Assembly: GCF_001995255.1 (NCBI RefSeq)
Contig: NZ_MUZR01000041.1
Coordinates: 1-33,725, forward strand
Length of the DNA: 33,725 bases
From: Thioalkalivibrio halophilus
Lineage (GTDB): Bacteria; Pseudomonadota; Gammaproteobacteria; Ectothiorhodospirales; Ectothiorhodospiraceae
Direction of reading: 5' to 3'
In this document: positions 12,217 to 29,651 of the stretch, piece after piece
How the letters are laid out: every line of letters begins with the position of its first letter
Position numbering within the stretch: position 1 is the stretch's first letter
Program-made: the position numbers and the translations under genes
Notes under the pieces: model-generated
What the model saw: only the letters and a program-made list of their open reading frames with translations
Told to the model about the DNA's origin: nothing
Database searches by the model: none

Positions 12217-12281
12217 GGAATAGGCGTGCATTCATGTTGCACGCGCCTGCATGTTCTCCGGGGGGCGGGACCCTCGGGCCC

Positions 12282-12315
12282 AAAAAAGCCCGGGTCCCCC
12301 AAGGGGAGCCCGGGC
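12282..12315 (-). terminator. Intrinsic terminator after the PfkB-family kinase gene
   Basis: On the minus strand a stem of GCCCGGGCTCCCC and GGGGACCCGGGC (one bulged base) closes a 3-base loop and is followed directly by six T (plus-strand A-run 12282-12287). It lies 53 bp after the stop codon of the kinase gene. This is a textbook Rho-independent terminator and the clearest one in the window. Confidence 0.88.
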
Positions 12316-12367
12316 CGGAAGCTCGCCGGAACCCGGCCATCGCGGCCGGATTCGGTGAGGGGCTGCC

Positions 12368-13300: not shown

Positions 13301-13547
13301 GTTGACTCCTTGCGTTGTTGAAGCGGTTCGGATGATGCCGATGTGGCGTCAAAACGGCCCTGCGGCGCGCGATTGCGGGGTGCGCGGCGCGTCTGCGGCG
13401 GGCCGGACGGTGCGCACAGGGTAAATATTTGGGCGCAAAACAACAAATCGGGGTCTCGCGCAACTCGCGATGAGGGGGGACGGGGCGCCGCCATGTGGGG
13501 GCCTTTGTGGCAGCATTGGGGTATTGCCGCGAGCGAGGGCCTGTCCG
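13301..13547. other. Divergent intergenic region, kinase (-) and efflux operon (+)
   Basis: This 247-bp gap contains an AT-rich island (about 13426-13450, with the palindrome AAATATTT) that probably holds the kinase promoter. The kinase leader would be about 120 nt and GC-rich. A small inverted repeat TCGCG/CGCGA lies near 13455-13470. I found no convincing -35/-10 pair and no recognisable riboswitch. Confidence 0.4.
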
Positions 13548-13724
13548 ATGAAACCACGCATCCTGATCCCGATCCTGATCCTCCTGCTGTTGCTGCTGAG
13601 CCTGTGGTCGGCGGGTCTGGACGGCAACGGCGGCGGTCTGCTGCCGGGTGCGCCGGACAGCGGGGCGGCCCCGGCGGCCGAACCTCCGGCCCCGGTGGCG
13701 CGGGTAACCTCGATTCCGGGATGA
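13548..13724 (+). CDS. Small single-pass membrane peptide coupled to an ABC ATPase
   Basis: This 58-residue product has a basic start (MKPR), one long hydrophobic segment ([20 protein letters not shown], about 5-24) and a Gly/Pro/Ala-rich tail. It could be membrane-anchored or a long uncleaved signal. Its stop codon overlaps the ATG of the next gene (ATGA at 13721-13724), the classical arrangement for translational coupling, and GAGGG lies eight bases before its own ATG. Those two facts are the main evidence that it is real. No family is recognised. Its place at the head of an efflux operon suggests an accessory or regulatory subunit of the transporter, which is inference. Confidence 0.6.
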
Positions 13725-14464
13725 ACGCCATCCCGGCCCCGGCCGCCGGTTTCGGCCGGCGCGAGGTCATCTTCCATGCGAGCGGGGTGACCCGGGTCTA
13801 TCTCATGGGCGAGGTCACCATCCGGGCGCTGCGTGGGGTGGACCTGGAGGTCTACGCCGGCGAGCTGGTAGTGATGCTGGGCGCGTCGGGCTCCGGCAAG
13901 TCGACGCTGCTGAACATCATGGGCGGGCTGGATACCGCGTCCGAGGGCGAGGTGCGCTACCGCGACCAGGATCTGGCGCAGGCCTCCGAGCGCACGCTGA
14001 CGGCCTTTCGCCGCGACCATGTGGGCTTCGTGTTCCAGTTCTACAACCTGATCGCCAGTCTGACCGCACGCGAGAACGTGGCCATCGTCACCGAGATCTC
14101 GCGCGATCCGATGCCGCCGGAGGAGGCGCTGGCGCTGGTGGGGCTGGAGGACCGCATGGACCACTTTCCGTCGCAGCTCTCCGGCGGCGAGCAGCAGCGT
14201 GTGGCCATCGCCCGCGCGATCGCCAAGCAGCCGGCGGTGCTGCTGTGCGACGAGCCCACCGGCGCGCTGGACTCGCAGACCGGGATCCGCGTGCTGGAGG
14301 TGCTGGCGCACATCAACGAGCGGCTGAACACCACGGTCGCGATCATCACCCACAACGCGGTCATCGGCGAGATGGCCGACCGGGTAATCCATCTGCGCGA
14401 TGGCCGGGTCGATTCCATCGAGGAGAACCCGCAGCGGGCGGACCCGGCCACCCTGCGGTGGTGA
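13721..14464 (+). CDS. ABC transporter ATPase, MacB/LolD-like
   Basis: The 247-residue ATPase has Walker [11 protein letters not shown]-loop [18 protein letters not shown], signature LSGGEQQR, Walker [14 protein letters not shown] and the H-loop histidine in IITHN. The FQ-(F/Y)NL-L-A-EN pattern and DEPTGALD place it in the MacB/LolD/DevA branch, which pairs with FtsX-type permeases and works by mechanotransmission rather than by a substrate channel. It is coupled to the upstream small ORF by an ATGA overlap and is followed 9 bp later by its permease. With the adaptor at 16566 it forms a tripartite export system; the substrate is unknown. Confidence 0.93.
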
Positions 14465-14473
14465 CGCGTACCC

Positions 14474-16504
14474 GTGCGCACCCTGCATCTCAAGGTCCTT
14501 CGCGATCTCGCCCGGCTGCGCGGACAGGCGGCGGCGATCGCGCTGGTCATCGCCAGCGGGGTGCTGACCCTGGTGTTCTCGGTGATGGGCCATGACGCAC
14601 TGAGCCTGACGCAGGAACGTTTCTACGCCGAGCGCCACTTTGCCGATGTCTTCGCCGAGGTGAACCGGGCCCCGCGGCGGATCGCCGATCCGCTGCGCGA
14701 GATCCCCGGGGTGGCCGAGGTTGAGCCGCGGGTGCGCGCGCCGGCGCGGCTGGAACTGGACGGCTTCGACGACCCGATCCGTGGCCAGGTGCTGTCGCTG
14801 CCGGACGGGCGCCAGCCGGCCCTCAACCAGCTGCACCTGCGCGAGGGACGCCTGCCGGAACGGGCCCGCTCCGACGAGGTGGTGGTCAGCGACGGCTTTG
14901 CCGAGGCCCACGGGCTGGTTGCCGGGGATACGCTGCGGCTGATCATCGGGGGGCGACTGGTCGAGGTGCGCGTCAGCGGCATCGCACTGTCACCGGAGTT
15001 CGTCTACCAGGTCTCGCCGGGGCATCTGATGCCGGACTACGAGCGCTACGCGATCCTGTGGATGAACGAAAGCGCGCTGGCTGCCGCCTGGGGCATGGAA
15101 GGGGCGTTCAACAGCCTGAGCGTGAGCCTGCAGCGCGATGCCGACCGCGCGGCGGTGATCGACGCGCTGGACGTTGCCCTCGCGCGCTATGGCAGCACCG
15201 GCGCCCATGGCCGCGACGAGCTGTTCTCGCACGAGTTCGTCACCCTGGAGATCCAGCAGCTGGGCATCATGGCGGTGGTGGTGCCGGCGATCTTCCTGCT
15301 GGTCTCGGCGTTTCTGCTGCACGTGGTGATGGGGCGCATCATCCGCGGGCAGCGCGACCAGATCGCGATCCTCAAGGCGTTCGGCTACGGCAACCTCGCG
15401 ATCGCGTGGCATTACGTGCTGCTGACGACGCTGATCGTGCTGACGGGCAGTGTCGCGGGGATCGCCCTGGGGGCGTGGACCGCGCACGCCCTGGTCGACC
15501 TGTACATGGAGTACTTCCGCTTCCCGGAGCTGAACTTCCGCCTGCAGGGATGGCTGGTGCTGCTGGCGGTGGGGGTGGCGATGGTCGCGGCCCTGCTGGG
15601 CACCCTGCAGGCGGTGTGGCAGGCGGTGCGCATGCAGCCGGCGGAGGCGATGCGTCCGCCGGCGCCGGAACGCTTCCGCCGCGGCTGGCTGGAGGGTTCG
15701 GCGCTGATGCGGGGTCTGGGACAGTCCTCCCGCATCATCCTGCGCAATCTCGCGCGCCACCGGCTCAAGGCACTGGCGTCGGTGATCGGGATCGGCCTGT
15801 CCGGCGGACTGCTGCTGATCGGGGCCTACCAGCTGCAGGCGGTGGGACACATGATCGACCAGCAGTACCGGGTGACCCTGCAGATGGATGTCGACGAGCC
15901 GATGGGTACCGGGGCCTATATCCGGCGCGACGCGCTGCATCGGCTGAAAGGCGAGGGCCCGGCGGTGACCGGCGCCTGGCTGCTGGTCGACTCCGAATAC
16001 GAAGACGCGCTGTATGCCTCGCTGTCCGAACAACCCGAGGTGGCCAGCGTGGAGCGGGTGCGCGAGGCCGAGGCCAATGTGCGCGAATACATGGAGGAAA
16101 CGGTGCTCGCGTTCGCGGCGGTATTCGTGCTGCTGGCCGGCTCGATCGCCTTCGCGGTGACCTACAACAACGCCCGTATCGCGTACGCCGAGCGCGAACG
16201 CGAGCTGGCCACGCTGGAGGTGCTGGGGTATTCGCGGGCGCAGGTCAGCTGGGTCCTGCTGGGCGAGATCGCGCTGGTCAGCCTGGCCGCCATCCCGGTG
16301 GCCTGGGCCAGCGGTACCGGGTTCGCCTGGCTGCTGAACCAGGCCCTGACGCTCGAGTTCGTGCGCCTGCCGTTCATCATCACGCCGCAGCTGTACGGCT
16401 TCGCCGCGCTGGGGATCATTGTGGCCTCCACGCTGTCCGGCCTGCTGATCCTGCGCCGGCTGCGCGGCCTGGACCGCGTGCAGGCCCTGAAGGCCGCGGA
16501 ATGA
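14474..16504 (+). CDS. ABC transporter permease with two FtsX domains
   Basis: The protein of 676 residues has an N-terminal membrane anchor (about 18-38), a large periplasmic domain, then a first FtsX bundle of three helices (about 262-385). A second membrane segment (about 435-455) follows, with a smaller periplasmic part and a second FtsX bundle of three helices up to the C-terminus. This 8-helix double-FtsX form is common for exporters that carry substrates from the outer leaflet or periplasm. A GTG at 14474 is the only sensible start and its ribosome-binding site is weak, so it probably depends on coupling with the ATPase gene 9 bp upstream. Substrate unknown. Confidence 0.9.
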
Positions 16505-16565
16505 CCCCCGGTGTCCGGAACGCTCGTCTGCGGCGCGGGGGCGCGGGATCTGCGAGACTGAGGAA

Positions 16566-17759
16566 ATGGTGTTGAAGAAGCGAATCACGGCGGGACTGGT
16601 GGTGCTGGCGGGTGCCGCAGCGCTGGTGTGGGCGCTGAGCCCGCGGCCGGTCGCGGTGGCGGTCAGTGAGGTGAAGTCCGGGCCGTTCACGGAGACCCTG
16701 CGCGAGGAAGGGCGCACGCGGCTGCGCGATACCTGGGAGGTGTCCGCGCCCATCGCGGGATTCCTGCATCGCGTGCACCTGGAAGAGGGCGATGCGGTAG
16801 CCGCCGGCGATGAACTGTTCCGCATGGAGCCGCTGCCGGCGCCGGGGCTGGATGCGCGCTCGCGCGAGCAGGCCCGCGAGCACCTGGCCGCGGCACGCTC
16901 GCGTCTGCAGGGGGCACGGGCCAGCCTCGAGGATCTGCGGGCCGAGGCGCGGCTGGCGGAGTCGGAGTACCGGCGTCACCGCGAACTGTTCGAGGACGGG
17001 GCGGTGTCCGCCAGCGATCTGGAGCGGGTGGAGACCCGGCGTGATCGCGCCCGCTCGACGGTGGAGGCAGGCGAGTCGGCGGTGGAGGTCGCTCGCAGCG
17101 AGGTCGAGGCGGCGCGGGTGATCCTGGACATCGCCACCGGCGAACGCAGCGAGGAGGAAGCCGAATCGCTGGCCGTGCGTGCGCCGGCCGGCGGCGTGGT
17201 GCTGCACCGGCATCGCTGCTGCGAGGGCACGGTCGTGGCCGGCGAACCGGTGCTGGAGCTCGGGGATCCGGCGGATCTGGAGGTGCAGGTGGACCTGCTG
17301 TCGATGGATGCGGTGCGGGTAACGCCGGACATGCGTGTGCGTCTGATCGACTGGGGTGGCGATGAGGCGCTGGAGGCCCGGGTGCGCCGGCTGCGGCCGG
17401 CGGGCTTCACGCGGACCTCGGCGCTGGGGGTGGACGAGCAGCGCGTGCCGGTCCTGCTCGAAGTGGATGCGGAAGAGGCCCGCAAGGCGGGGCTGGTGGT
17501 GGGCTACCACGTGGAGGCCGAGTTCCTGCTGTGGGAAGGCGAGGACGTGCTGCAGATCCCCACCAGCGCCCTGTTCCGCGAGGACGGTGAATGGGCGGTG
17601 TTCGTGGTGGAAGAAGGCCGGGCGCAGCCGCGCCGGGTCGAGGCCGGCCGCCGCAGCGATTTCACCACGCAGATCCGCGAGGGTCTGGAGGCCGGGGAAC
17701 GGGTGGTGACTCGGCCGGGCGACCAAGTGCAGGCCGGGACCCGTGTGATCGCCGACTAA
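16566..17759 (+). CDS. Periplasmic adaptor (HlyD/RND-type membrane fusion protein)
   Basis: The 397-residue product has an N-terminal membrane anchor (about 8-24), a lipoyl half-motif (VSAPIAGFLHRVHLEEGDAV) and a long alpha-helical hairpin (about 95-195, rich in Arg/Glu/Ala). The second lipoyl half (VRAPAGGVVL), a beta-barrel domain and a membrane-proximal domain follow. Such adaptors bridge inner-membrane exporters to an outer-membrane channel. An unusual cluster HRHRCC (214-219) sits where the chain leaves the second lipoyl half and could bind metal. It follows the permease by 61 bp. GAGGA lies just before ATG 16566; an in-frame GTG at 16569 has better spacing. No outer-membrane factor gene is in the window. 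Confidence 0.9.
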   Translation: MVLKKRITAGLVVLAGAAALVWALSPRPVAVAVSEVKSGPFTETLREEGRTRLRDTWEVSAPIAGFLHRVHLEEGDAVAAGDELFRMEPLPAPGLDARSREQAREHLAAARSRLQGARASLEDLRAEARLAESEYRRHRELFEDGAVSASDLERVETRRDRARSTVEAGESAVEVARSEVEAARVILDIATGERSEEEAESLAVRAPAGGVVLHRHRCCEGTVVAGEPVLELGDPADLEVQVDLLSMDAVRVTPDMRVRLIDWGGDEALEARVRRLRPAGFTRTSALGVDEQRVPVLLEVDAEEARKAGLVVGYHVEAEFLLWEGEDVLQIPTSALFREDGEWAVFVVEEGRAQPRRVEAGRRSDFTTQIREGLEAGERVVTRPGDQVQAGTRVIAD

Positions 17760-17814
17760 GGTGCGAGGTTTATTTCCCCGATAGTGAGGCAGGATCTCTC
17801 GAGGTACTCCAGTC

Positions 17815-17844
17815 TTGACATGGTGTTCGCTTGGAGCGAATACT
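17815..17844 (+). promoter_or_regulatory. Promoter with embedded operator for the toxin-antitoxin pair
   Basis: A perfect -35 box TTGACA (17815-17820) is followed 18 bp later by AATACT (17839-17844) as the -10. The spacer holds an inverted repeat, TTCGCT (17826-17831), TGG, AGCGAA (17835-17840), whose right arm touches the -10. A dyad between -35 and -10 is the usual place for autorepression by the antitoxin or toxin-antitoxin complex. The start site would be near 17851, close before the toxin gene. Confidence 0.6.
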
Positions 17845-17867
17845 GCCGTGAGTAAGGGATGGATGAC

Positions 17868-18125
17868 ATGGACGTCAGGTTTACGACTAAAGCGATCAAG
17901 GAACTGAAGAAGGCCGGAGCGGCCAGCGACCTTGTCCTGGCAAAAATCCGGCAATATGCGGCCGAGCCGGACAGCCTGGCGAACAATGTGAAGGCGCTGA
18001 AAGGCCGAGAGGAATATCGACTTCGCGTCGGGGATTACCGGGTGCTGTTCGTGATCCTTCAAGACGGCACCATGACCATCATGGAAGTCACCGCCATTCG
18101 CCATCGGAGCAAAGCCTATGACTGA
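17868..18125 (+). CDS. RelE/ParE-family toxin
   Basis: The product of 85 residues has the compact RelE/ParE layout: two N-terminal helices (TTKAIKELKKAG..., SDLVLAKIRQYAAEP), then the beta-sheet with YRLRVGDYRVLF and a C-terminal strand ending in RHRSKAYD. Basic residues and the tyrosine near the end occupy the positions used by RelE-type ribosome-dependent mRNA endonucleases. The ATG at 17868 has TAAGGG nine bases upstream; the ATG at 17859 would leave no spacing. It overlaps the antitoxin gene by 8 bp. The DNA is visibly less GC-rich than its neighbours, consistent with horizontal acquisition. A ParE-like gyrase poison is the alternative activity. Confidence 0.85.
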   Translation: MDVRFTTKAIKELKKAGAASDLVLAKIRQYAAEPDSLANNVKALKGREEYRLRVGDYRVLFVILQDGTMTIMEVTAIRHRSKAYD

Positions 18126-18453
18126 AACGGCCGAGCAAATCACTCTTGATCGGGGCGAGTATGAGGCCCTGCTGGCGCGTCTGGAGGATGCCGAAGATCG
18201 GGCCGTCATCGCCGAGCGGCGGAATGATCCCACCCTGCCCCTTGCCGCGGTCGAACGTCACCTGGCCGGGGAAAGCCTTGTGACCCTCTGGCGGGAAGAA
18301 CGGGGGCTATCCCAGCGCGCCCTGGCCTCCGCAGCCGGTATCTCGCCCGCGATGCTGAATGAAATCGAGCGGAAGAAAAAGGTGCCCTCCATCGTGACCG
18401 CCCGTGCCCTGGCCGATGCGCTCGGCGTGGGCCTGGACGATCTGTTTGCTTGA
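18118..18453 (+). CDS. XRE-family HTH antitoxin
   Basis: The 111-residue product has an N-terminal segment (ITLDRGEYEALLARLEDAEDRAVIAERR) resembling the toxin-facing part of RelB/Phd-type antitoxins. It is joined to a Cro/CI-type helix-turn-helix at about 53-108 (LVTLWREERGLSQRALASAAGISPAMLNEIERKKK...). The gene starts inside the toxin gene (8-bp overlap), so toxin comes first, as in HigBA-like modules. The predicted binding site is the dyad at 17826-17840 in the promoter. It is followed by a long hairpin before the convergent acs gene. Confidence 0.87.
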   Translation: MTETAEQITLDRGEYEALLARLEDAEDRAVIAERRNDPTLPLAAVERHLAGESLVTLWREERGLSQRALASAAGISPAMLNEIERKKKVPSIVTARALADALGVGLDDLFA

Positions 18454-18457
18454 GCGC

Positions 18458-18527
18458 CCGGGCGCGGGGCCGTGAACCTGGTGCCTCGGCAGGCGTACCA
18501 GGTTCGGATCGCGGCCCCCGTGCCCGG
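18458..18527. other. 70-bp interrupted hairpin between antitoxin gene and acs
   Basis: The whole convergent gap folds on itself in three nested blocks. CCGGGCGCGGGGCCG (18458-18472) pairs with 18512-18527 with one G.U pair and one bulge; AACCTGGT (18475-18482) pairs perfectly with ACCAGGTT (18497-18504); and a small GCC/GGC stem lies inside. No T-run is present on either strand. It could serve both convergent genes as a terminator or RNA-stabilising structure. Confidence 0.45.
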
Positions 18528-18529
18528 CG

Positions 18530-20488
18530 TCAGGCCTTGCCCTGCAGCTGTGGGATGACCGCCTCGTTCTCCAGGGTGGAGGTGTCCGAGGTGATCTCCT
18601 CGCCCTTGGCGATGGAGCGCAGCAGGCGCCGCATGATCTTGCCGGAACGGGTCTTGGGCAGGCCGTCGGCGAAGCGGATGTCGTCGGGCTTGGCGATCGG
18701 GCCGATCTGCTCGCCCACCCATTCGCGCAGTTCCTTGACCATCTTTTCGGCTTCCTCGCCGGTCAGGCGGTCACTCTGGAGGATGACGAAGGCGACGATG
18801 GCCTCGCCCTTCACATCGTGTGGACGGCCGACCACTGCGGCTTCGGCGACTTCCTGGTGGGCCACCAGTGCGGATTCGACTTCCATGGTGCCCATGCGGT
18901 GCCCGGAGACGTTGAGCACGTCGTCGATGCGGCCCATGATCCAGAAGTTGCCTTCGGCGTCGCGACGCGCGGAGTCGCCGGCGAGGTAGTACTTGCCGCC
19001 GAACTTGGGCCAGTAGGTGTCCTTGTAGCGCTGGTCGTCGCCCCACACGGTGCGCAGCATGGACGGCCAGGGCTTCTTGATGACCAGGTAGCCGCCCTCG
19101 TCGGCGCCCAGGCTGTTGCCGTCCTCGTCCACTACGTCGGCGTCGATACCCGGAAGGGCGCGGGTGCAGGAGCCCGGGACCAGGGTGGTGGCGCCGGGGA
19201 TCGGGGCGATCATGTTGGCGCCGGTCTCGGTCTGCCACCAGGTGTCCACGATGGGGCAGCGCTCGCCGCCGACCTCGCGGTAGTACCACATCCACGCCTC
19301 GGGGTTGATGGGTTCGCCCACGGTGCCCAGCAGGCGCAGTTTCGACAGGTCGTAATGCGCGGGCAGCTCGGGGCCGGCCTTCATCAGCGCGCGGATGGCG
19401 GTGGGGGCGGTATAGAACACGGTCACGCCGTGGTCCTGGCACATCTTCCACCAGCGCCCGGCGTCCGGAACGGTGGGCACGCCCTCGTAGACCACCTGCG
19501 TCGCGCCCACCGCCAGCGGGCCGTAGGCGACGTAGGTGTGGCCGGTGATCCAGCCGACGTCGGCAGTGCACCAGAAGATATCGTCGCCCTGCAGGTCGAA
19601 CACCCATTCGTTGGTGATGATCGCGCCCAGCAGGTAGCCGGCGCTGGAGTGCTGGATGCCCTTGGGCTTGCCGGTGGAGCCGGAGGTGTAGAGCAGGAAC
19701 AGCGGGTGTTCGGATTCCACCCACTCCGGTTCGCAGTCGACCGATTCGCCGTCCACCGCCTCTTCCCACCAGACGTCGCGGCCTTCGTGCATGGTCACGT
19801 CGTTGCCGGCGCGCCGGCAGACGATGACCTTCTCGACCTCGGCGGGGTTGCTGGCCAGCGCCTTGTCCACGCCCGCCTTCAGGCCCACGACCTTGCCGCC
19901 GCGCTCGCCGCCGTCGGCGGTGATGATGACGGTGGCGCCGGAGTCCACCACGCGGTCGCGCAGCGCATCCGCGGAGAAGCCGCCGAACACCACCGAGTGG
20001 ATCGCGCCGATGCGGGCGCAGGCCTGCATGGCGATCACGGCCTCCGCGTTCATGGGCATGTAGATGACCACGCGATCGCCCTTCTCCACGCCCATGCCCT
20101 TGAGGGCATTGGCCAGCTTGCCGACCTCGTTGTAGAGCTCGCGGTAGGTGAGGTTGCGGGTATCGCCGTTTTCGGCCTCGAAGCGGATCGCGGTCTTGTT
20201 GCCGCGGGCCTCCAGGTGGCGGTCGATGCAGTTGTAGGAGACGTTCATGCGCCCGTCGGCGAACCAGCGGAAATGCGGGGCGTTCGAGCTGTCCAGGCCC
20301 TCGGTGAAGTCGGTCTGCCAGTCGATCTTCTGCCGGGCCAGATCGCACCAGAACCCCTCGTAGTCGGCCCGCGCCTTGTTGTGCAGGGCCTCCACGTCCT
20401 CCGGCTTCAGCCGGGCGTTCGCGGTGAATGCCGCCGGCGGATCGAAATGGCGGGTCTCGGTCAGGGTGGACTCGATGGTGTCGCTCAT
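18530..20488 (-). CDS. acs: Acetyl-CoA synthetase (AMP-forming)
   Basis: The 652-residue product equals the E. coli Acs length. Acs converts acetate, ATP and CoA to acetyl-CoA via acetyl-AMP. Visible motifs are the P-loop-like [11 protein letters not shown], the acetate-pocket tryptophan region [10 protein letters not shown], the hinge region [27 protein letters not shown], and the C-terminal [11 protein letters not shown] with the catalytic lysine that is regulated by acetylation in other bacteria. ATG 20488 has GGAGG five to six bases upstream and is preferred over upstream ATGs. An extended -10 (TGCTATCCT, minus strand, 20558-20550) may give the gene its own promoter. It lies downstream of the symporter/DUF294/exonuclease genes on the same strand. 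Confidence 0.97.
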
Positions 20489-20579
20489 GCGGGCCTCCAT
20501 GTTCTGCGTGGTTCCAGCGGATTCGTCGGGGTTGGGTCTCACGGGCGCGAGGATAGCATGCCTGCCGGCCGTGTCCGGC

Positions 20580-21344
20580 CTACCAGAGCCGTCGCGGCCG
20601 GAACAGCACGCGTCCCAGCGGCAGCTCGCCCGTCGGATCGCGTTCGGCGATCAGCGCGGCGAACAGTTCGGCGGCCCCGAGTGCGTCCAGCAGGGCGTCG
20701 TGGGTGCGCCGGGCGGGCAGATTGTATTCGCCGCGCAGTACGTGCAGCCGCAGCCCCCGGGCCGGGATCGGGCGGCCGGCGCGCCGCCGCGAGGTTTCGG
20801 CCAGACGCAGGGTGTCGACCACCGCCAGTGGGGGGCGCGTGCCGTAGTGACGTTCGCAGGCGCGGGCCAGAAAGCCCAGCTCCAGGGCTGCGTGATGGGC
20901 GATCAGCACGCGGCCGTCGAGGGCCCGGAACAGCGCATCCAGGGCCTCGCCGGGCGTGCCGCCGGTCGCTGCCCGGTGGTCGGTGATGCCATGGATCACC
21001 GCACTCTGTTCCGGTACCTCGCGTTGCGGTCGTACCAGTACGTGTCCGGCGGTTGCCAGGTCGATGCTGGTGCCATCCAGCGCCACCCAGCCAATGCTCA
21101 GGATGGCGTCGCGTTGCGGGTCCAGACCGGTGGTCTCGATGTCCACCGCGAGAAAGCGGGTGCGGGCTACCGGCTGTGACGGGGCGGGCGGCGGCGTGTT
21201 CAGGCAGTCCCTCAGCGCCCCGGCGGGGGCCTGGCTCCGGGCGTGGTCTCGCGCACGGCAGAAGCGCCAGTAGCCCGGCGCCAGCCAGAACGCGGCGCGA
21301 CCGGGGGCGCAGGCCTCGCGTTGCGGGGCGGCGGCGCGGGTCAT
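20580..21344 (-). CDS. DnaQ-like 3'-5' exonuclease (Pol III epsilon-type domain)
   Basis: The 254-residue product has an N-terminal extension of about 60 residues followed by a DEDD-type exonuclease domain. Exo I is [10 protein letters not shown], exo II is around HVLVRPQ...IHGITD and [12 protein letters not shown], and exo III is [13 protein letters not shown]; the H...D of exo III marks the DEDDh subfamily. Stand-alone proteins of this type are often annotated as a polymerase III epsilon subunit but lack the tail that binds the polymerase. Its ATG overlaps the stop codon of the upstream DUF294 gene (ATGA at 21344-21341), so the two are translationally coupled. This pairing next to acetate-type symporters recurs in gammaproteobacteria; why an exonuclease belongs there is unknown. 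Confidence 0.88.
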
Positions 21345-23212
21345 ACCTCGCCTTCGCCTCCCAGGGCCGCCCGGGTGGCTCGATCCACGCGCACGAAGGC
21401 GGCCTTCAGCCGGCTGCGTTCCAGCCCGGAGAGTTCCGTCGGGTCCACGTGGTTGTCCGGGGCTTCGCCGGCGGCGATCCGTCGCGCCTGATGGCGGGCC
21501 CGGACCCCGGCAATGAAGCGGAATGCCTCTTCCAGCTCCCGGGTACTGTCCGGGTCGAGGACCCCGGCGTGAGCGGCGGCGCGCAGGCGTTCCAGGGTCC
21601 CGCGGGCATCGGCTCCGGCGCGCAGGGCGCAGACCCGCGCCAGGGCCACCACCGGTAGCAGGCCGCGTTTCTTCAGGTCCAGGGCCGGAGTGTGCTCGCC
21701 ATCGTGTTCGAGCACGAAGCGGCGGAAAAAACCCAGCGGGGGGCGTACTTCGCGGGCCTGCACCGCCATGGCCGTGTGCGCCGCCTCGTGGCGGCAGCCG
21801 TCGTCCAGCGCCTGCTCCCGCAGGGGCGTGAAGAGATCGCCACGGCCGTGGATTACCCGCAGGTCGAGGTAATGCGCGGCCAGGCGGGCCTCCTGCGCGT
21901 CCGGCCGGGTGAAGGCGCGCCGGAAGGTTTCCTGCCAGGTGCTGGCGGGGCCGCGCCAGGCCGCGTGGGTGGGGTCGACGCCGCCGGGGCAGCGCCGGAT
22001 GCCGCAGGCGTCCAGCCCGTCGGTGACCTCGCGCGCCAGTTCGGCGAACCAGTCGTCGGCGTCGTTCGGGGCACCGTCGTCCCAGATGAGAGCCGTGTCC
22101 TGGTCGGTATGGGCCAGCTGTTCGTGGCGGCCCTGGCTGCCGCTGGCCAGCCAGGCCCATGCGGCCGGAGCGGGCCCCAGACGGGCTTCGGCCAGTTCGA
22201 TCAGGCATCGGGTCAGGGTGTCGACCACCAGCGTGATTACCTGCGCGGTGCGCAGGGCGTCCACTCCGGCCTCGGTGAGCCGGACCTGAAGGCGGGCCAG
22301 GCCCTGCATGTGCTGGCACAGTTCTTCCTGCGAGCCGGCCCGGCGCAGGTCACGGATCAGATGCACCGCGCTGGTGCCCTGGTGCCGGATCAGGTCGGTC
22401 CCGGAGAGGATGCCGGCCAGACGGCCTCCGGCCGGTTCCACCACCGGCAGGTGATGGATGTCGCGGCGTGCCATCTCCAGCAGGGCCTCGAAGACCGGGG
22501 TTTCTCCGGTAACGGTGACCAGATCCCGGGCCATGCACTGATGCACCGGGGTGTCCGCGGGCAGGTCCTGCGCCAGGGCATGGCGCAGGTCGGTATCGGT
22601 GAGCAGGCCGGCGGGTCGGTCCGGGTCTTTGGCCGTGTGCAGGACCAGGGCCGAGACATCCGCGTCGGTCATGAGCCGGGCCGCCTCGCGCAGCGAGATG
22701 TCCGACTGCCCCTGCAGAACCTGCGGGCTCATCAGGGTGGAGACCGGCGTGGTCAGCAGGGCGTCCGGTCCGCCCTCGGTGGCGTGCATTACCGCGTTCT
22801 CGCCGTCCGGTGCCACCGGCGCGCCCGGGGTACGCAGGAAATCAGCCAGTTCCGGATGACGGGTCGCGAGGTCCTCGGCGCGGGGCCCGGGAAGGTGATA
22901 GACCAGTGCGTCCTCGGTCACGCGTCCGTGCTCACCGGCCACTCCGCTTCCCCAGGCGCCGTCGGCGACCCGGGCCACGTCGCCTTCGCCCAGCCGGTCG
23001 TGCAGCCGGTCGCCGGCGTCCAGCAGGTCGATGGCGCCGGTGTGCACGATCCACAGCCCGTCGCTGTCCCCTTCGGGCGGGAACGGCGCGCCGTGGCGCA
23101 GGTAGCGCAGGGTCAGGCGGCGCACCATCGCGGAGCGGGTCTCCGCGGACAGCTCCGCGAGATCCGGCGACTGATCGAGGAATTCGCGGATCTCGTCGAG
23201 TTCGGCGTTCAT
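21341..23212 (-). CDS. DUF294 nucleotidyltransferase-like protein with CBS pair (copy A)
   Basis: The product has 623 residues. In order: a degenerate cyclic-nucleotide-binding-like domain (about 15-130, without the usual phosphate-binding FGE...RxA cassette); a CBS pair (about 155-280, VSTLMSPQVLQGQ... and HQCMARDLVTVTG...); then a DUF294 nucleotidyltransferase domain with GSQGRHEQLAHTDQD (the G-S...TDxD catalytic signature) and its C-terminal helical partner domain. Proteins of this build resemble the GlnD/GlnE-type nucleotidyltransferase fold and are thought to be regulatory, with CBS domains sensing adenine nucleotides. It lies 153 bp after the symporter gene, across a strongly structured gap, and is coupled to the exonuclease gene. 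A paralogue lies on the other side of the symporter. Confidence 0.88.
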   Translation of the reverse strand: MNAELDEIREFLDQSPDLAELSAETRSAMVRRLTLRYLRHGAPFPPEGDSDGLWIVHTGAIDLLDAGDRLHDRLGEGDVARVADGAWGSGVAGEHGRVTEDALVYHLPGPRAEDLATRHPELADFLRTPGAPVAPDGENAVMHATEGGPDALLTTPVSTLMSPQVLQGQSDISLREAARLMTDADVSALVLHTAKDPDRPAGLLTDTDLRHALAQDLPADTPVHQCMARDLVTVTGETPVFEALLEMARRDIHHLPVVEPAGGRLAGILSGTDLIRHQGTSAVHLIRDLRRAGSQEELCQHMQGLARLQVRLTEAGVDALRTAQVITLVVDTLTRCLIELAEARLGPAPAAWAWLASGSQGRHEQLAHTDQDTALIWDDGAPNDADDWFAELAREVTDGLDACGIRRCPGGVDPTHAAWRGPASTWQETFRRAFTRPDAQEARLAAHYLDLRVIHGRGDLFTPLREQALDDGCRHEAAHTAMAVQAREVRPPLGFFRRFVLEHDGEHTPALDLKKRGLLPVVALARVCALRAGADARGTLERLRAAAHAGVLDPDSTRELEEAFRFIAGVRARHQARRIAAGEAPDNHVDPTELSGLERSRLKAAFVRVDRATRAALGGEGEV

Positions 23213-23249
23213 CCCGGTACTCCGTGGATGGCTGGCTGGGGTGTCGCGA

Positions 23250-23342
23250 GGATCGTCCGCAAGCCCACCCGCGTGGATTTGCGGACGATCCCCGAGAGAA
23301 ATACCTCGGGGATCGTCCCGGGCCCGGCCTGGTGGCCGGCCC
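23250..23342 (-). other. Overlapping, mutually exclusive hairpins between symporter and DUF294 genes
   Basis: Three stem-loops fill the gap. A: GGATCGTCCGCAA (23250-23262) with 23279-23291, 13 perfect bp. B: GACGATCCCCGAG (23284-23296) with 23305-23317, 13 perfect bp. C: a GC stem of 23321-23329 with 23334-23342. A and B share 23284-23291, so they cannot form together, as in attenuators or alternating REP-like elements. On the minus-strand transcript the order is C, B, A. No T-run follows any of them. Confidence 0.7.
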
Positions 23343-23365
23343 CGGAAGCGGATCCCAGGAACGGA

Positions 23366-25135
23366 TCAGTCGGCGCGCGGCACGCGCACGCTTTCCACCA
23401 GGTCCTGGATGTCCTTCGGCGGCGGAGCGGTCATCTTCATCACGATGAAGGCGGTGATGAAGTTCAGGGCCGCACCGATGGGACCGAAGCTGGAGGGGTT
23501 GATCCCGAAGATCCAGCCCTCCGGCGTGTCCGGCAGCATGGCGGTCTCGGGGAAGAAGAACCAGCCCTTGTACATGAAGATGTACAGCAGGGTGGTCACC
23601 AGACCCACCAGCATGCCGGTGATCGCGCCTTCGCGGTTCATCTTCTTCATGAAGATGCCCATCATCAGGGTCGGGAACAGCGAGGCGGCCGCGAGTCCGA
23701 AGGCCAGTGCCACCACCTCGGCCGCGAAGCCCGGTGGATTGAGCCCGAGATAGCCGGCGAACAGGATGGCCACGGCCATCGCTATGCGTCCGGCCAGCAG
23801 CTCGCGCTTCTCGCTGATCTTGGGCGTGAAGACCCCTTTCAGAAGGTCATGCGAGATGGCCGAGGAGATCGCCAGCAGCAACCCGGCCGCGGTGGACAGC
23901 GCCGCCGCGATCCCCCCGGCCGCCACCAGGGCGATCACCCAGCCCGGCAGGCCGGCGATCTCGGGGTTGGCCAGCACCATGATGTCGCGGTCCAGCTCGA
24001 CGATCTCGCTGCCTTCCCAGCCGTATTCCTCCTCGGCCATGGCGGCGAATTCTTCGTTCTGGTCGTTGTAGTACTGGATCACGCCGTCGTCGTTCTTGTC
24101 CTCGAATTCCAGCAGGCCGGTCTGTTCCCAGCGATCCATCCAGGCTGGCTTGTCCTCATAGGCCAGGTGGCCTTCCTCGGTGCCGATCTCGCCCGGATGC
24201 ACGGTGTTGACCAGGTTCCAGATGGCCATCGCACCCACCGCCGGCGCGGTGGTGTAGAGGATGCCGATGAAGACCAGCGCCCAGCCGGCCGACTTGCGGG
24301 CATCCCGCACGCGCGGGACGGTGAAGAAGCGGATGATGACGTGCGGCAGGCCCGCGGTACCGATCATCAGCGCCAGGGTCAGCAGGAACATGTTGAGCAT
24401 GCTCATGCCGCCCTCGGTGGCCGTGTATTCGGTGAAGCCGAGTTCCACCATGGTGTTGTCCAGGGCCTCCAGCAGGTAGGTGTCGGAGCCCTGCAGGGTC
24501 GACCCCAGGCCCAGCTGCGGCAGCGGGTTGCCGGTCAGGGTGATGGCGATGAACACCGCCGGCACCGTGTAGGCGAAGATCATGATCACGTACTGCGCGA
24601 TCTGGGTGTAGGTGATACCCTTCATCCCGCCAAGTACAGCGTAGATGAACACCACTGCCATCCCGGCGACCAGGCCCACTTCCAGCTGCACCTCGAGGAT
24701 GTTGGAGAAGGCGATCCCCACGCCGCGCATCTGCCCGATCACGTAGGTGATGGACATCGCCAGCAGCGAGATCACGGCCACCACGCGGGCCGGCTTGGAG
24801 TAGAACCGGTCGCCGATGAATTCCGGCACCGTGAACTTGCCGAACTTGCGCAGATAGGGGGCCAGCAGCAGGGCCATCAGCACGTAGCCGCCGGTCCAGC
24901 CCATCAGGTAGGCGCCCCCGGTGAAGCCGAGGAAGGCGATCAGGCCGGCCATGGAGATGAAGCTGGCCGCGGACATCCAGTCGGCCGCCGTGGCCATGCC
25001 GTTGGCGACCGGGTGGATGCCCTTGCCCGCCACGTAGAATTCGCTGGTCGAGCCGGCGCGGGCCCAGATCGCGATCCCGATGTAGATCGCGAAGGTGATG
25101 CCGACCACGATCAGGCTGAGAGTCTGTTGATCCAT
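23366..25135 (-). CDS. Sodium:solute symporter, VC_2705 type (acetate-permease-like)
   Basis: The 589-residue product has about 12-13 transmembrane helices and SSS-family landmarks: SEFYVAGKGIHPVANGMATAADWMSAASF, the GGMKGITYTQIAQY segment and AALSTAAGLLLAISSAISHDL. It is related to the acetate permease ActP, but the partner small subunit and the long soluble insertion place it in the large-subunit group of the two-subunit VC_2705-type symporters. The insertion (about 315-385) is acidic and contains an EF-hand-like loop DKNDDGVIQYYN (346-357). It begins 7 bp after the DUF4212 gene. With acs downstream, acetate or another short monocarboxylate is the likely substrate. Confidence 0.9.
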   Translation of the reverse strand: MDQQTLSLIVVGITFAIYIGIAIWARAGSTSEFYVAGKGIHPVANGMATAADWMSAASFISMAGLIAFLGFTGGAYLMGWTGGYVLMALLLAPYLRKFGKFTVPEFIGDRFYSKPARVVAVISLLAMSITYVIGQMRGVGIAFSNILEVQLEVGLVAGMAVVFIYAVLGGMKGITYTQIAQYVIMIFAYTVPAVFIAITLTGNPLPQLGLGSTLQGSDTYLLEALDNTMVELGFTEYTATEGGMSMLNMFLLTLALMIGTAGLPHVIIRFFTVPRVRDARKSAGWALVFIGILYTTAPAVGAMAIWNLVNTVHPGEIGTEEGHLAYEDKPAWMDRWEQTGLLEFEDKNDDGVIQYYNDQNEEFAAMAEEEYGWEGSEIVELDRDIMVLANPEIAGLPGWVIALVAAGGIAAALSTAAGLLLAISSAISHDLLKGVFTPKISEKRELLAGRIAMAVAILFAGYLGLNPPGFAAEVVALAFGLAAASLFPTLMMGIFMKKMNREGAITGMLVGLVTTLLYIFMYKGWFFFPETAMLPDTPEGWIFGINPSSFGPIGAALNFITAFIVMKMTAPPPKDIQDLVESVRVPRAD

Positions 25136-25142
25136 GGCCGGA

Positions 25143-25403
<261 letters not shown>

Positions 25404-25443
25404 GGTGTTGCTCCTCTTTTCGTAGGTATTGGCTGTGGTGGCC

Positions 25444-27318
25444 TCACAGCTGGTACTGCACCGCAAGCTGCCCCTGCAGCTTGCGGGCCTGGCGGAAGGA
25501 TTCCTTGAGCACCCGTCCCTCCAGGGCGCCCAGTTCTTCCGGCCGGATGCGGCTGTCGTCCTCGCGGCCCTCGCGCAGGGCCTTCTGCTGCGCGCGCAGG
25601 CGCAGCATCTGCAGATAGCGCAGGGCCGCGTGATAGTCGGCGGCATCGCCGGGGCGCATGGCCTCGGCACTGACGGCCTGATCCATGCGCTCGTGGCTGC
25701 CGGTGGCCGGCAGTTCGGCGGCCAGAGCGATCACCCGCGCGCCGTCCACGAACGGGGTCAGGCCCTGTTTCTTCACGTCGATCCCTTCGGCCCCGGCGCG
25801 GATCTCGCCGAACAGGCCCAGCGGCGGTCGGAAGGCCTGCTGGTTGGCCGCCATCTGCCGGCGAAAGCGCGAGTTGTAAGCGGTTTTCTGCAGCAGGAAG
25901 GTGCGCAGTGCCTCCACCGGCGAGGCGTCGCCGTCCACCGCGCGCAGGTCGAAGAAGATGGTGCTCTTGAGCAGGTGTTCCGGGGTGCCCTGTTCGATCC
26001 AGCGGGTGAAGCGGGCCTCCCATTCCGGGCCGCTGAGGCAGCACTCCGGATTGCCGGCCATGATGTTGCCGGGGCACAGGGTGAAACCGCATTCCGCCAG
26101 CGCCCGGTTGACGGCCTGCGCCCAGGGCAGCAGGCGTGCGCGGACGGCGTCCTCGTCGCCCGGCTCGGCATCGAACAGGATGCCGTTGTCCTGGTCGGTG
26201 ATCAGCGCCTGCTCCTCGCGGGCCTGCGAGCCGAACGCCAGCCAGGTGAAATCGATGCCCTCGATGTCGTACTGCGGGCGCAGCAGGGCCAGCACCCGGC
26301 GGGTCGCGTGTTCGTTCAGGCGAGTGATCAGGCGCAGGACCTGGTCCGCCTCGGCGCCCTGGGTGATCACCGCCTCCACCAGCCGCGGGACCTGGCGCAG
26401 GCGCGCGGCGATCTCGTCGACCGCGGTCGCCTGGCGGATCTCGCGCACCAGCCCGTCCAGGGTCAGCGGCTGGCGGGTGAGCAGGTCGCGTTCGCCCAGC
26501 ACCCCGGCCAGGCGCCCGTCGCGCACTACGCACAGGTGGGTCATCCCGTGTTCGGTCATCGCCTCGATGCCCTCGAAGCCCGGGGCATTCTCTTCCAGCG
26601 CGACGGGGTCCGGGGTCATCACCGCGCGCACCGGCGTGTCCAGTCCGACGCCTTCCAGGGCCACTCGGTTGAGCAGGTCATGCAGGGTGAAGATGCCCAC
26701 CGGTGCGGCCTGGTCGTCCACCGCGACGATCGATCCCACCCGCTGGTCGCGCATGGTGGTCAGGGCCTCGCGCAGCGGGGTGTCCGGGCGGCAGGTGACC
26801 GGTTCGCGCGCCAGGCGCAGTGCCAGCGGGGTGTTCAGCTGGCCGCCGCCGGCCGCGTCATGACTGGCGAGGCTGTCGAGGCCCTGATGCAGGCGGTCCA
26901 GCAGGTTGGCCAGACGCCGCGTGCAAAAGTCGTTGAATACCCGCGAGCGGGCCCGCAGGCGGTCGAAATCCTCAAGGCTCAGTTCCAGGCACAGGGTGTC
27001 CTCCGCCGCGCGATGCACGGTATGCACCGCGCGGCGGCCGAGCAGGGCCCCGATCGGGAAACACTCGCCGGGGATCAGCTCCCAGGCGTTCCCGGAGAGC
27101 TGTTCGTCCTCGCTCGGGCTCTCCCCGCGGATGCGTCCCTGACGGATGATGTGGAAGCGCTGCGCCGGGCCCGCTTCCGGGTCGGTGATGCGCGCCCCCT
27201 GTTCGTAGAAGCGCGTCTGCAGACGCGGCAACAGGAATTCCAGCGCCTCGGCCTCGAGCTGGTCGAAGGGCGCGTGGGCGCTGAGGAACTCGCGGGTGCT
27301 GTCGAGGGCGTCGGACAT
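25444..27318 (-). CDS. DUF294 nucleotidyltransferase-like protein with cNMP and CBS domains (copy B)
   Basis: The product has 624 residues with the same order as copy A: a cyclic-nucleotide-binding-like domain (about 10-130, better preserved, with GECFPIGALLGRRAVHTVHRAAEDTLCLEL), a CBS pair (about 150-285), then the DUF294 nucleotidyltransferase core with AFGSQAREEQALITDQDNGILFD and a helical C-terminal domain (NPECCLSGPEW...KKQGLTPFVDGARVIAL). It is the first gene of the symporter operon. ATG 27318 is chosen because it starts the family-like N-terminus; no clear ribosome-binding site is visible. A sigma-54-like promoter and a GTTACG array lie upstream. Its role is probably regulation of uptake or of acetate metabolism; the target is unknown. 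Confidence 0.88.
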   Translation of the reverse strand: MSDALDSTREFLSAHAPFDQLEAEALEFLLPRLQTRFYEQGARITDPEAGPAQRFHIIRQGRIRGESPSEDEQLSGNAWELIPGECFPIGALLGRRAVHTVHRAAEDTLCLELSLEDFDRLRARSRVFNDFCTRRLANLLDRLHQGLDSLASHDAAGGGQLNTPLALRLAREPVTCRPDTPLREALTTMRDQRVGSIVAVDDQAAPVGIFTLHDLLNRVALEGVGLDTPVRAVMTPDPVALEENAPGFEGIEAMTEHGMTHLCVVRDGRLAGVLGERDLLTRQPLTLDGLVREIRQATAVDEIAARLRQVPRLVEAVITQGAEADQVLRLITRLNEHATRRVLALLRPQYDIEGIDFTWLAFGSQAREEQALITDQDNGILFDAEPGDEDAVRARLLPWAQAVNRALAECGFTLCPGNIMAGNPECCLSGPEWEARFTRWIEQGTPEHLLKSTIFFDLRAVDGDASPVEALRTFLLQKTAYNSRFRRQMAANQQAFRPPLGLFGEIRAGAEGIDVKKQGLTPFVDGARVIALAAELPATGSHERMDQAVSAEAMRPGDAADYHAALRYLQMLRLRAQQKALREGREDDSRIRPEELGALEGRVLKESFRQARKLQGQLAVQYQL

Positions 27319-27353
27319 CGTGTCGGCTGCGGGAATCGGCGTCCCGCGCCCGA

Positions 27354-27369
27354 CGCAAGTCGCGGGCCA
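27354..27369 (-). promoter_or_regulatory. Candidate sigma-54 (-24/-12) promoter of the symporter operon
   Basis: The minus strand reads TGGCCCG-CGAC-TTGCG. The GG and GC dinucleotides have the exact spacing of the TGGCACG-N4-TTGCA consensus, with two deviations. Transcription would start near 27343, 25 nt before ATG 27318. The GTTACG array is at about -72 to -140 from that start, where enhancer-binding activators of sigma-54 usually bind. No good sigma-70 pair was found for this gene. Confidence 0.5.
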
Positions 27370-27414
27370 GTGATTCCGGGCTTGTAAAAACAGTGGCTTG
27401 TGAAGCAGAAGGGG

Positions 27415-27483
27415 GTTACGGGTGTTACGCCACGTAACACCCGTCGTTACGCCGCGTAACGGCCCGTAACGGCCCGGCGTAAC
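27415..27483. promoter_or_regulatory. Operator-like array: seven GTTACG/CGTAAC copies in 69 bp
   Basis: GTTACG occurs forward at 27415, 27424 and 27446 and inverted (CGTAAC) at 27433, 27455, 27465 and 27478. Two pairs form GTTACG-N3-CGTAAC dyads whose starts are 22 bp apart, two helical turns. The first is embedded in a 12-bp perfect inverted repeat (ACGGGTGTTACG/CGTAACACCCGT), and CGTAACGGCC is tandemly repeated at 27455-27474. It lies between the divergent symporter operon and the HARP gene. Confidence 0.75.
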
Positions 27484-27490
27484 ACCCCGG

Positions 27491-27519
27491 TTGACCCCCT
27501 CGCGGGGGGTATCGATGAT
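27491..27519 (+). promoter_or_regulatory. Candidate sigma-70 promoter of the HARP gene
   Basis: TTGACC (27491-27496) and GATGAT (27514-27519) are 17 bp apart, directly downstream of the GTTACG array. The spacer contains a short GC hairpin, ACCCCC/GGGGGT (27494-27510). The start site would be near 27526, about 27 nt before the ATG. Confidence 0.45.
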
Positions 27520-27552
27520 GGGAGCCCGTCCCACAGCCACCGGAAGGTCCCC

Positions 27553-28161
27553 ATGCGCCGCTTCGTGCTGGACACCAGCGTCTTCACCAACCCGCACGTC
27601 TCGGCGCAGTTCGGCGAGACCCCCGAGGCGGTCCTGCAGCAGTTTCTCTGGCTCGCGCGCGACTGCAGCGCGGAGTTCTACATGCCGCTGTCGGTCTACG
27701 AGGAATTCCGCACCATGCGCGACCTCGAGCCGCTGGCCGCCGATTTCGAGACCGTGGTGTGGGTCCGTTCGCCGCGGCGTTTCGCGCTGACCCTGCCCAG
27801 CGACATCCTCTACGAATTCATCGACGAGGTGCGCACCCGGATCGACCGGGGCCTGCGCATCGCCGAGGAGCACACCCGCGAGGCCGGCGCGGCCGAGTCC
27901 CTGCGCCCCGAGCTGATCACCCAGCTGCGCGAGCGTTTTCGCGAGGCGATGCGCAAGGGCCTGGTGGATTCGCGCGAGGACGTGGACGCGGTGCTTCTGG
28001 CGATGGAACTGGATGCCGAACTGGCGACCGCCGATCAGGGGATGCGCAAGCTGGGCAATCGCATGGGGGTCAAGCTGGTGACCGCCGAATACCTCGCCGG
28101 CGTGATGCAGAACCTTGCCGAGGGCGCGGGTTTCACGCGGGGCTTGTCCGCGGGGTCGTGA
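27553..28161 (+). CDS. RNA-free ribonuclease P, HARP type (Aquifex Aq_880-like PIN protein)
   Basis: This 202-residue PIN-domain protein strongly resembles the minimal protein-only RNase P of Aquifex aeolicus: RRFVLDTSVFTNP at the start, AEFYMPLSVYEEF (40-52), VRSPRRFALTLPSDILYEFIDEVR (71-94), RIDRGLRIAEEHTREAG (96-112), and the C-terminal acidic cluster VDSREDVDAVLLAMELDAELATADQGM (138-164). Candidate metal-binding acids are Asp7, Asp139, Asp143, Asp145 and Asp161. The helical insertion between about 83 and 135 is the spike-like oligomerisation region of the family. HARPs cleave 5' leaders from pre-tRNA; relatives are often labelled RNA ligase partner protein. ATG 27553 has GGAAGG five bases upstream. 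No RNA ligase gene is adjacent. Confidence 0.88.
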   Translation: MRRFVLDTSVFTNPHVSAQFGETPEAVLQQFLWLARDCSAEFYMPLSVYEEFRTMRDLEPLAADFETVVWVRSPRRFALTLPSDILYEFIDEVRTRIDRGLRIAEEHTREAGAAESLRPELITQLRERFREAMRKGLVDSREDVDAVLLAMELDAELATADQGMRKLGNRMGVKLVTAEYLAGVMQNLAEGAGFTRGLSAGS

Positions 28162-28208: not shown

Positions 28209-29651
28209 ATGAACCGCCGTACCCCTGCCCTGCTGGCAATCCTGCTGCTCGCGCTGCTTCCGGCCATTCCCGGGGGCGCGTTCGCCTCCGAGTACGAGTA
28301 TCTGCCCACCCCGCTGAAATCCGCGATCGATGCGCAGGGCCTGCCACCCGGGTCCGTGGGGCTCTGGATCCAGCGCGCCGGGGACAATGCCGTGCTCGCG
28401 CAGCTTAATGCCGACCGGCTGTTCAACCCGGCTTCCACACTCAAGCTGGCGACCTCGCTGGCGGCGCTGGACCAGCTGGGGCCGGACTACACCTGGAAGA
28501 CCGAGCTGTGGGCCGTCGGCGAGCTGCGCGAGGGGGTTCTGGACGGCGACCTGGTGGTGCGCGGCACCGGCGACCCCGGCATGGTCAATGAGGAGCACTG
28601 GCGCATGCTCGGGCAGCTGCGTCAGGCGGGCGTGGAACGCATCGCCGGCGACGTGATCCTGGACGCCTCGCATTTCGACGTGGGGCCGCAGGATCCTTCC
28701 GTGTTCAACGGGAAGCCGCTGCGGGCGTATAACCAGGGCGTGTACGCCCTGCACGTGAACTCCAACGCCCACCGCATTCGTGTGCGGCCCGGGCGCAATG
28801 GCGAGGCCGTCCGGGTGAGCCTGGATCCCCCACTTCCGGACGTGGAGATCGACAACCGGCTGCGGCCCGGGCGTGGTCGTTGCGGTGACTTTCAGCGCGG
28901 GATCGAGATCGATGCCGACCGCAGCAACGGACGCCTGACGCTCAGGGGCGAGTATCCCGTGCATTGTGGTGAATACGAATTGCTGCGTTCGGTAACCGAG
29001 CCCGAACGCAATCACGCCGGGCTGTTCCGTCTGCACTGGTCGCAATGGGGCGGGGAGCTGGACGGCGAGATCCGCCCGGGGCGCATGACGCCCCTGCAGG
29101 AGGAGCCCCTGGTGACGCACCGCTCGCGGCCGCTGGCGGACCTGATCCGGGTCTCCAACAAGTGGAGCTCCAACGTGATGACCCGGCATCTGATGCTGAG
29201 TCTGGGCGCGGAGCGCCACGGCGCCCCGGTGACCAAGGAGCGTTCGCGTCAGGCACTGCTGCAGGCCCTGCGCGAGCTGGACGTGAACCCCGGTGGCATG
29301 CGGGTGGACAATGGTTCGGGGCTGTCGCGTGACGCACGCATGTCGCCGTACCAGCTGGGGCAGATCCTCAAGGCCGGGTGGGAACATCCACTGCGGCCCG
29401 AGTTCCAGTCCTCGCTGGCCCTGGCCGGGGTCGACGGCACCCTGCGCAACCGCTTCAACAACGGGGCCGAACGCGGGCACATGCATCTGAAGACCGGACA
29501 CCTGCGCGAGGTCTCCGCGGTGGCCGGCTACGTGCGTACGCAGAGCGGGGATGACGTGCGCGTCGTTCTGCTGGTGAACGACCCGCGCGCCCATATCGGG
29601 CCGGGGCGCAGCCTGCAGGAGGCCGTTCTCGGCTGGGTGCGCGCGCTGTAA
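28209..29651 (+). CDS. dacB: D-alanyl-D-alanine carboxypeptidase/endopeptidase (PBP4)
   Basis: The product of 480 residues (E. coli DacB has 477) has a signal peptide (TPALLAILLLALLPAIPGGAFA). The three penicillin-binding motifs of class C low-molecular-mass PBPs are present: STLK at 76-79 with Ser76 as nucleophile, SSN at 320-322 and KTG at 428-430. The long segment between the first two motifs holds the extra PBP4 domains. It acts on peptidoglycan in the periplasm. ATG 28209 is preferred over ATG 28194 because it starts directly at the basic n-region; neither has a strong ribosome-binding site. It follows the HARP gene by 47 bp and is probably transcribed with it. Confidence 0.95.
   Translation: MNRRTPALLAILLLALLPAIPGGAFASEYEYLPTPLKSAIDAQGLPPGSVGLWIQRAGDNAVLAQLNADRLFNPASTLKLATSLAALDQLGPDYTWKTELWAVGELREGVLDGDLVVRGTGDPGMVNEEHWRMLGQLRQAGVERIAGDVILDASHFDVGPQDPSVFNGKPLRAYNQGVYALHVNSNAHRIRVRPGRNGEAVRVSLDPPLPDVEIDNRLRPGRGRCGDFQRGIEIDADRSNGRLTLRGEYPVHCGEYELLRSVTEPERNHAGLFRLHWSQWGGELDGEIRPGRMTPLQEEPLVTHRSRPLADLIRVSNKWSSNVMTRHLMLSLGAERHGAPVTKERSRQALLQALRELDVNPGGMRVDNGSGLSRDARMSPYQLGQILKAGWEHPLRPEFQSSLALAGVDGTLRNRFNNGAERGHMHLKTGHLREVSAVAGYVRTQSGDDVRVVLLVNDPRAHIGPGRSLQEAVLGWVRAL

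Follow-up and report, generated by a model that had tools for sequence, protein, structure and literature searches.

The closest described relatives of the gene analysed here belong to the HARP family (homologs of Aquifex RNase P), which includes Aq880, Hhal2243 and Hth1307. According to the account in PMC10941002, most bacteria that have a HARP also carry an RNA-based RNase P. Reports on activity differ: the HARPs of T. nitratireducens and H. halophila were negative on pre-tRNA (PMC12153264), and in the set described in PMC10941002 some HARPs failed one or both assays, perhaps through misfolding, whereas others did show activity. Whether a given HARP is active therefore cannot be read from its conserved residues alone. 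The association of HARP with an RNA ligase is already known: PMC12153264 gives the two genes as closely linked in 127 of the 164 bacterial cases and describes a HARP-Rnl3 locus in Thioalkalivibrio and its relatives. The association rests so far on gene neighbourhood and co-occurrence. What is new here is not this association but two exceptions within Thioalkalivibrio, in which the pair is split, and how they arose. We found no description of a split HARP-ligase pair in the open full-text literature; the supplementary table of PMC12153264 may list these genomes.

The HARP gene of Thioalkalivibrio halophilus lies in a 33,725-nucleotide stretch of DNA (hereafter, the window; Table 1) from a draft assembly of 2,871,788 bases in 97 contigs. 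The initial annotation had recognised it from its motifs and had named VapC toxins as the alternative. In profile searches, the ORF scored above the curated cut-offs of PF08745 (PIN_5; 203.4 bits, cut-off 27), TIGR03875 ("RNA ligase partner protein"; 214 bits, cut-off 95.3) and NF003344 (labelled just "hypothetical protein"; 294.2 bits, cut-off 241), and five more PRK04358 models matched below their own cut-offs. None of these models bears the name HARP, which comes via the PDB, where the matches comprised seven distinct sequences, each named RNA-free ribonuclease P (best match 7og5, E = 2.3e-78). VapC toxins have the PIN fold and the aspartate pattern in common with HARP, and one might be mistaken for it; however, no Pfam family other than PF08745, VapC-type PIN included, matched the ORF at E ≤ 0.01. 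Together with the three models above their cut-offs and the uniform PDB matches, this excluded the toxin, a reading that retains practically no probability.

The candidate active-site aspartates mentioned in the initial annotation are in place. In the alignment with the PDB match 7F3E, which is Aq880 (PMC8405995), D7, D139, D143 and D161 pair with Asp7, Asp138, Asp142 and Asp160 in the numbering of that paper; PMC8266387 numbers the last of these D161. The spike-helix residues R126 and R130 correspond to R125 and R129 among the mutants tabulated in PMC8266387, assuming that its numbering is that of Aq880. The ORF is a full-length HARP, a member of a known family.

Table 1. Coordinates of the HARP gene, its control region and neighbouring genes in the window
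Feature	Coordinates	Strand	Remarks
HARP (homolog of Aquifex RNase P; Pfam PIN_5)	27553..28161	+	202 aa, ATG start; profile and PDB matches
Putative HARP promoter, sigma-70-type	27491..27519	+	TTGACC-N17-GATGAT
Array of seven GTTAC/GTAAC half-sites, operator of the acetate operon	27415..27483		Palindromes GTTAC-N5-GTAAC at 27424-27438 and 27446-27460
Sigma-54-type promoter aimed at DUF294	27355..27369	-	TGGC-N7-TTGC, 36 bp upstream of the DUF294 start
DUF294 nucleotidyltransferase-like protein with CBS/cNMP-binding, first gene of the acetate operon	25444..27318	-	Profile match
Symporter small subunit (TIGR03647)	25143..25415	-	ORF frame extends further upstream; start approximate
VC_2705-type sodium/solute (acetate-type) symporter	23366..25135	-	TIGR03648, 834.3 bits
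Second DUF294-CBS protein, downstream of the symporter	21341..23212	-	Homology
Acetate-CoA ligase (Acs)	18530..20542	-	Homology
dacB-type D-Ala-D-Ala carboxypeptidase (S13/PBP4), lying 3' of HARP in its new position	28209..29651	+	TIGR00666, 209.1 bits

A genome-wide search for the RNA-based RNase P, which the initial annotation had suggested, recovered both of its components. The RNase P RNA scored 317.5 bits, and the rnpA match ended two bases short of the end of contig C35, so that its truncation is that of the assembly. HARP is thus not the sole RNase P of T. halophilus, which in this respect resembles most bacteria that have a HARP. Across the genus, RF00010 matched 24 of 30 genomes (23 above the cut-off), and the other six probably reflect assembly gaps and not HARP-only genomes; four of these are 58-77% complete (G027, G028, G031 and G032), and two (G035 and G036) are 96% and 99% complete, in 240 and 280 contigs. 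All 42 tRNA genes recovered from T. halophilus end in CCA, and the ARAGORN output for them contained no oddity calling for a special enzyme. The set is incomplete, as tRNA-Ile(GAT) and tRNA-Ala(TGC) were absent from it, perhaps gone with an unassembled rRNA operon. With Hth1307 described as cleaving CCA-bearing pre-tRNA 10-fold more slowly (PMC10652100), a tRNA set of this kind would seem to be a poor fit for a cell relying mainly on HARP for 5' processing.

We surveyed 47 genomes of the family Ectothiorhodospiraceae, 30 from Thioalkalivibrio and 17 from other genera. An Rnl3-type RNA ligase (TIGR01209) was present in all 30 Thioalkalivibrio genomes and HARP in 29; neither was detected in the 17 genomes from other genera. 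In the sole HARP-less genome of the genus (G032, 66% complete), the ligase match stops 60 bases short of the end of its contig, at the side where HARP would be expected. HARP and ligase are arranged tail to tail in 27 of the 29 genomes having both, with 43-130 bp between the profile matches, the exceptions being T. halophilus and Thioalkalivibrio sp. ALJ24. The initial annotation had stated that the T. halophilus HARP has no RNA ligase neighbour. No ligase gene indeed stands beside it, but the absence is local only: a ligase is encoded on contig C11 (15017-16120; 270-271.9 bits against TIGR01209, cut-off 136.9). Its frame is open for 368 codons and includes a KIDG stretch that presumably represents ligase motif I. 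Thus, T. halophilus has both families in one genome, as do the relatives with the described locus, but here and in ALJ24 the genes are unlinked, and in T. halophilus they lie on different contigs with other neighbours on both sides. A second scan, of 41 HARP loci from named genomes overlapping the first set, found the ligase tail to tail in 34. The seven unpaired loci comprised ALJ24 (L164), Halorhodospira abdelmalekii (L198) and five in which the contig ends less than 1 kb from HARP (L196, L197, L201, L203 and L204). For H. abdelmalekii, the 6 kb visible on each side of HARP contained no match to the ligase query.

For the comparisons that follow, T. halophilus (G000) and ALJ24 (G021) are referred to as the split lineage. 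Group A comprises 13 genomes (G015-G020, G022-G026, G039 and G040) and group B deeper members of the genus (e.g., G012, G013, G014, G030 and G035-G038), a division of our own based on sequence identities and trees; group comparisons covered the 13 group A genomes, at most 8 of group B and the 2 split genomes. The locus L031, with a truncated HARP, was left out of the ALJ24 comparison, group identities, trees, upstream-motif counts and dN/dS. In trees also leaving out G034, the HARP of the split lineage clusters with group A. Neighbourhoods were compared at 19 other loci in one comparison (out of 29 genus relatives) and in ten genomes in another.

Genes for a Na/Pi cotransporter and a beta-CASP nuclease precede the ligase in all 13 group A loci, and in both split genomes the ligase adjoins homologues of these two genes, on a contig apart from HARP. 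The ligase has thus stayed with its former flanking genes, and it was HARP that moved away. In the split lineage, it now stands between the acetate operon and dacB. The initial annotation had correctly placed a metabolite-uptake operon divergent from HARP and dacB after it. The operon encodes a DUF294-CBS protein, a symporter small subunit and the VC_2705-type sodium/solute symporter, whose substrate is probably acetate. In the ten other genomes compared, the acetate operon and dacB occupy different neighbourhoods; in 14 further genomes they are on separate contigs, and G038 has no dacB match. The right-hand neighbours of dacB are those seen in group A. Furthermore, the window and ALJ24 align collinearly across nearly the whole window, so the rearrangement is common to both genomes, and despite the draft state of the assembly HARP and the ligase each have at least 5 kb of other genes on either side.

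Identity to ALJ24 varies along the window. The block from the symporter through DUF294 to HARP (about 23.5-28.05 kb) is ~95% identical, the DUF294/HARP intergenic region within it ~93% and the immediate flanks ~79%. These values suggested joint recombination of the block, a reading on which we do not rely because comparable identity to ALJ24 is reached elsewhere in the window (13.5-17.8 kb, ~95%; 32.3-33.5 kb, 91-98%).

The initial annotation had described a short divergent control region with a dense operator array, shared by HARP and the uptake operon. The array is real. Its exact palindrome, GTTAC-N5-GTAAC, occurs just twice in the 2.87-Mb assembly, both times in this array; a spacer of N4 gave no match, N5 being the correct spacing, and a looser palindrome (up to 3 mismatches) was not enriched across the window (8 matches against 4.2 expected, with 11 of 100 shuffles reaching 8). 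The DUF294 gene was located in 27 of the 30 genus genomes, those in which it is missing (G027, G032 and G034) being 66-79% complete. All 27 upstream regions contain at least one GTTAC-N5-GTAAC, starting 119-154 bp before the gene (about 0.0002 per region expected by letter shuffling), as well as the sigma-54-type -24/-12 pair [TC]GGC-N7-TTGC (chance 0.011; in L084 the reported match is off-position, and the usual site is visible in the sequence). Such an arrangement is that of an operon with a sigma-54 promoter and an enhancer upstream of it. T. halophilus thus shares both elements with the 26 other DUF294 loci of the genus, whereas HARP as their divergent neighbour is confined to T. halophilus and ALJ24. 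Of the 27 loci with the array, 25 are in genomes in which HARP has remained beside the ligase. The array is therefore that of the acetate operon, and its description as a shared element does not hold in this respect.

HARP has a promoter motif of its own. TTGAC-spacer-ATGAT stands ahead of HARP in 26 of the 28 genus genomes, with ATGAT 24-34 bp before the start (0.00007 per region expected by letter shuffling; the count leaves out L031 and L180, the latter with a short upstream region), and the remaining two carry CGAAGATG at that place. Among 17 loci not named Thioalkalivibrio, 6 have the motif and 11 lack this form. The motif is present at both the ligase locus and the new locus, so HARP appears to have moved together with its own promoter; the junction would fall between the last half-site, which ends at 27483, and the -35 box at 27491, a gap of 7 bp. 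With its promoter conserved at both loci, HARP is most likely expressed chiefly from it, and the array may now influence this expression as well.

A candidate regulator of the array was identified by comparison with group B, in four loci of which (L145-L148) two genes upstream of the acetate operon form a conserved pair, a histidine kinase and an NtrC-type regulator in L145. The best T. halophilus homologue of this regulator (71% identity) is encoded on contig C20 (3728-5047) and may bind the array; 11 more homologues in the genome are 37-48% identical.

HARP is under purifying selection in the split lineage. Comparison of this lineage with group A gave a median dN/dS of 0.118, against 0.033 within group A and 0.107 between groups A and B, values that, like all those given here, are rough, as dS was high in many pairs and pairs with dS ≤ 0.15 were dropped. 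Between T. halophilus and ALJ24 it was 0.040, or 0.058 with the fuller sequence. Given the 0.107 between groups A and B, the split lineage is not unusual for its distance. The ligase gave higher medians in the split lineage (0.420 in comparison with group A, 0.303 for T. halophilus with ALJ24) than within group A (0.127) or group B (0.175). Acceleration of the ligase as a consequence of the split was considered and dropped, as the adjacent Na/Pi cotransporter gene, which did not move, shows an equal rise (0.436 and 0.405; 0.128 within group A), and the rate of the ligase is therefore no evidence about the split. The dacB values were 0.311, 0.168 and 0.129. The ligase is less constrained than HARP, yet its frame is open. 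These sets leave out G034 for HARP and G032 for the ligase, besides L031, and ignore the beta-CASP gene.

Taken together, we consider it probable, if far from certain, that HARP is an accessory enzyme acting in trans, split from its ligase, in a cell in which the RNA-based RNase P is the main tRNA 5' enzyme. As an intact ortholog of the known HARPs, it is predicted to be a metal-dependent endoribonuclease of the PIN type that forms homo-oligomers, up to a dodecamer, and cleaves pre-tRNA or RNAs resembling tRNA. Routine tRNA 5' maturation would be left to the cell's RNA-based RNase P, and the Rnl3 ligase is the customary genomic partner of HARP. In the split lineage, the tail-to-tail pair has been broken up: the ligase kept its old neighbours, and HARP, apparently with its own promoter, came to lie upstream of the acetate module and ahead of dacB. 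As both genes are intact after the split, they would be able to cooperate in trans from separate loci. An accessory role fits the CCA-bearing tRNA genes and the slow cleavage of such substrates by one HARP, and we infer the role in vivo, the division of labour with RNase P and the cooperation in trans from these genomic data. The partnership with the ligase is suggested by co-occurrence and neighbourhood, which could also reflect shared ancestry of the locus. In contrast, replacement of the RNA-based enzyme by HARP, as a full backup RNase P in harsh conditions, is improbable. Family membership and the catalytic residues are consistent with it, and some HARPs are reported to complement the loss of RNase P in E. 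coli or yeast (PMC12153264, PMC10941002), but the genome contains RNase P RNA, assays of relatives were negative (PMC12153264), and all 42 tRNA genes have the CCA that made a poor substrate for the HARP described in PMC10652100. A toxin-antitoxin or defence function of HARP and ligase has been raised, with PIN_5 put in a VapC-like group (PMC12153264). It is very improbable here: both genes are kept after their separation in 2 of 29 genomes, which is unexpected for a linked pair, and the PADLOC models gave no match to HARP or ligase at E ≤ 0.01. Moreover, loss of the ligase in Thermococcus kodakarensis, where the genes are unlinked, caused no growth defect (PMC12153264). Retention of the split genes makes any model that requires both at a single locus, the linked toxin-antitoxin pair among them, less likely and leaves room for a partnership in trans.

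The new position of HARP raises a different possibility, that it was recruited to the acetate regulon, an enhancer-binding regulator on the array next to its -35 box making it responsive to acetate or carbon. The array stops 7 bp short of that box and has seven half-sites in T. halophilus and six in ALJ24, whereas the other 25 loci have three to five; the intergenic region is more similar to ALJ24 than the sequence just outside the symporter-HARP block, and the NtrC-type regulator on contig C20 is a plausible protein to bind it. However, the array is that of the acetate operon and is found also where HARP is elsewhere, and local duplication could supply the additional half-sites. Enhancer-binding proteins activate sigma-54, not sigma-70, promoters, and the match between regulator and operator is a presumed one, with the 11 other homologues as competing candidates. 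We regard this recruitment as unlikely, although HARP may be under acetate control. The fuller scenario, in which the pair was split, its two members go on functioning in trans and HARP has come under the enhancer of the acetate operon, tying the processing of tRNA or other RNA to carbon supply, is quite unlikely. The new position also yields a testable prediction on HARP expression under acetate.

At the ligase locus, all 13 group A genomes (e.g., L069:3684-8665) have a Na/Pi cotransporter gene near or overlapping the ligase frame and, as a second RNA-processing gene nearby, that for a beta-CASP/RMMBL metallo-beta-lactamase nuclease, with domains scanned in L069 only; the beta-CASP gene is absent there in the four group B loci seen (L065, L066, L073 and L075). 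In the window, a ParE-type toxin gene followed by one for an HTH protein (17859-18453) forms a likely toxin-antitoxin pair and has no match in the ALJ24 alignment. In four group B loci (L155-L158), the genes homologous to those at 7057-11651 of the window are found near dacB; in the window, the 16 kb between them (11678-28161) hold genes for a CZB protein, a PfkB kinase and an ABC/MacB-type exporter, the toxin-antitoxin pair, the acetate module and HARP.
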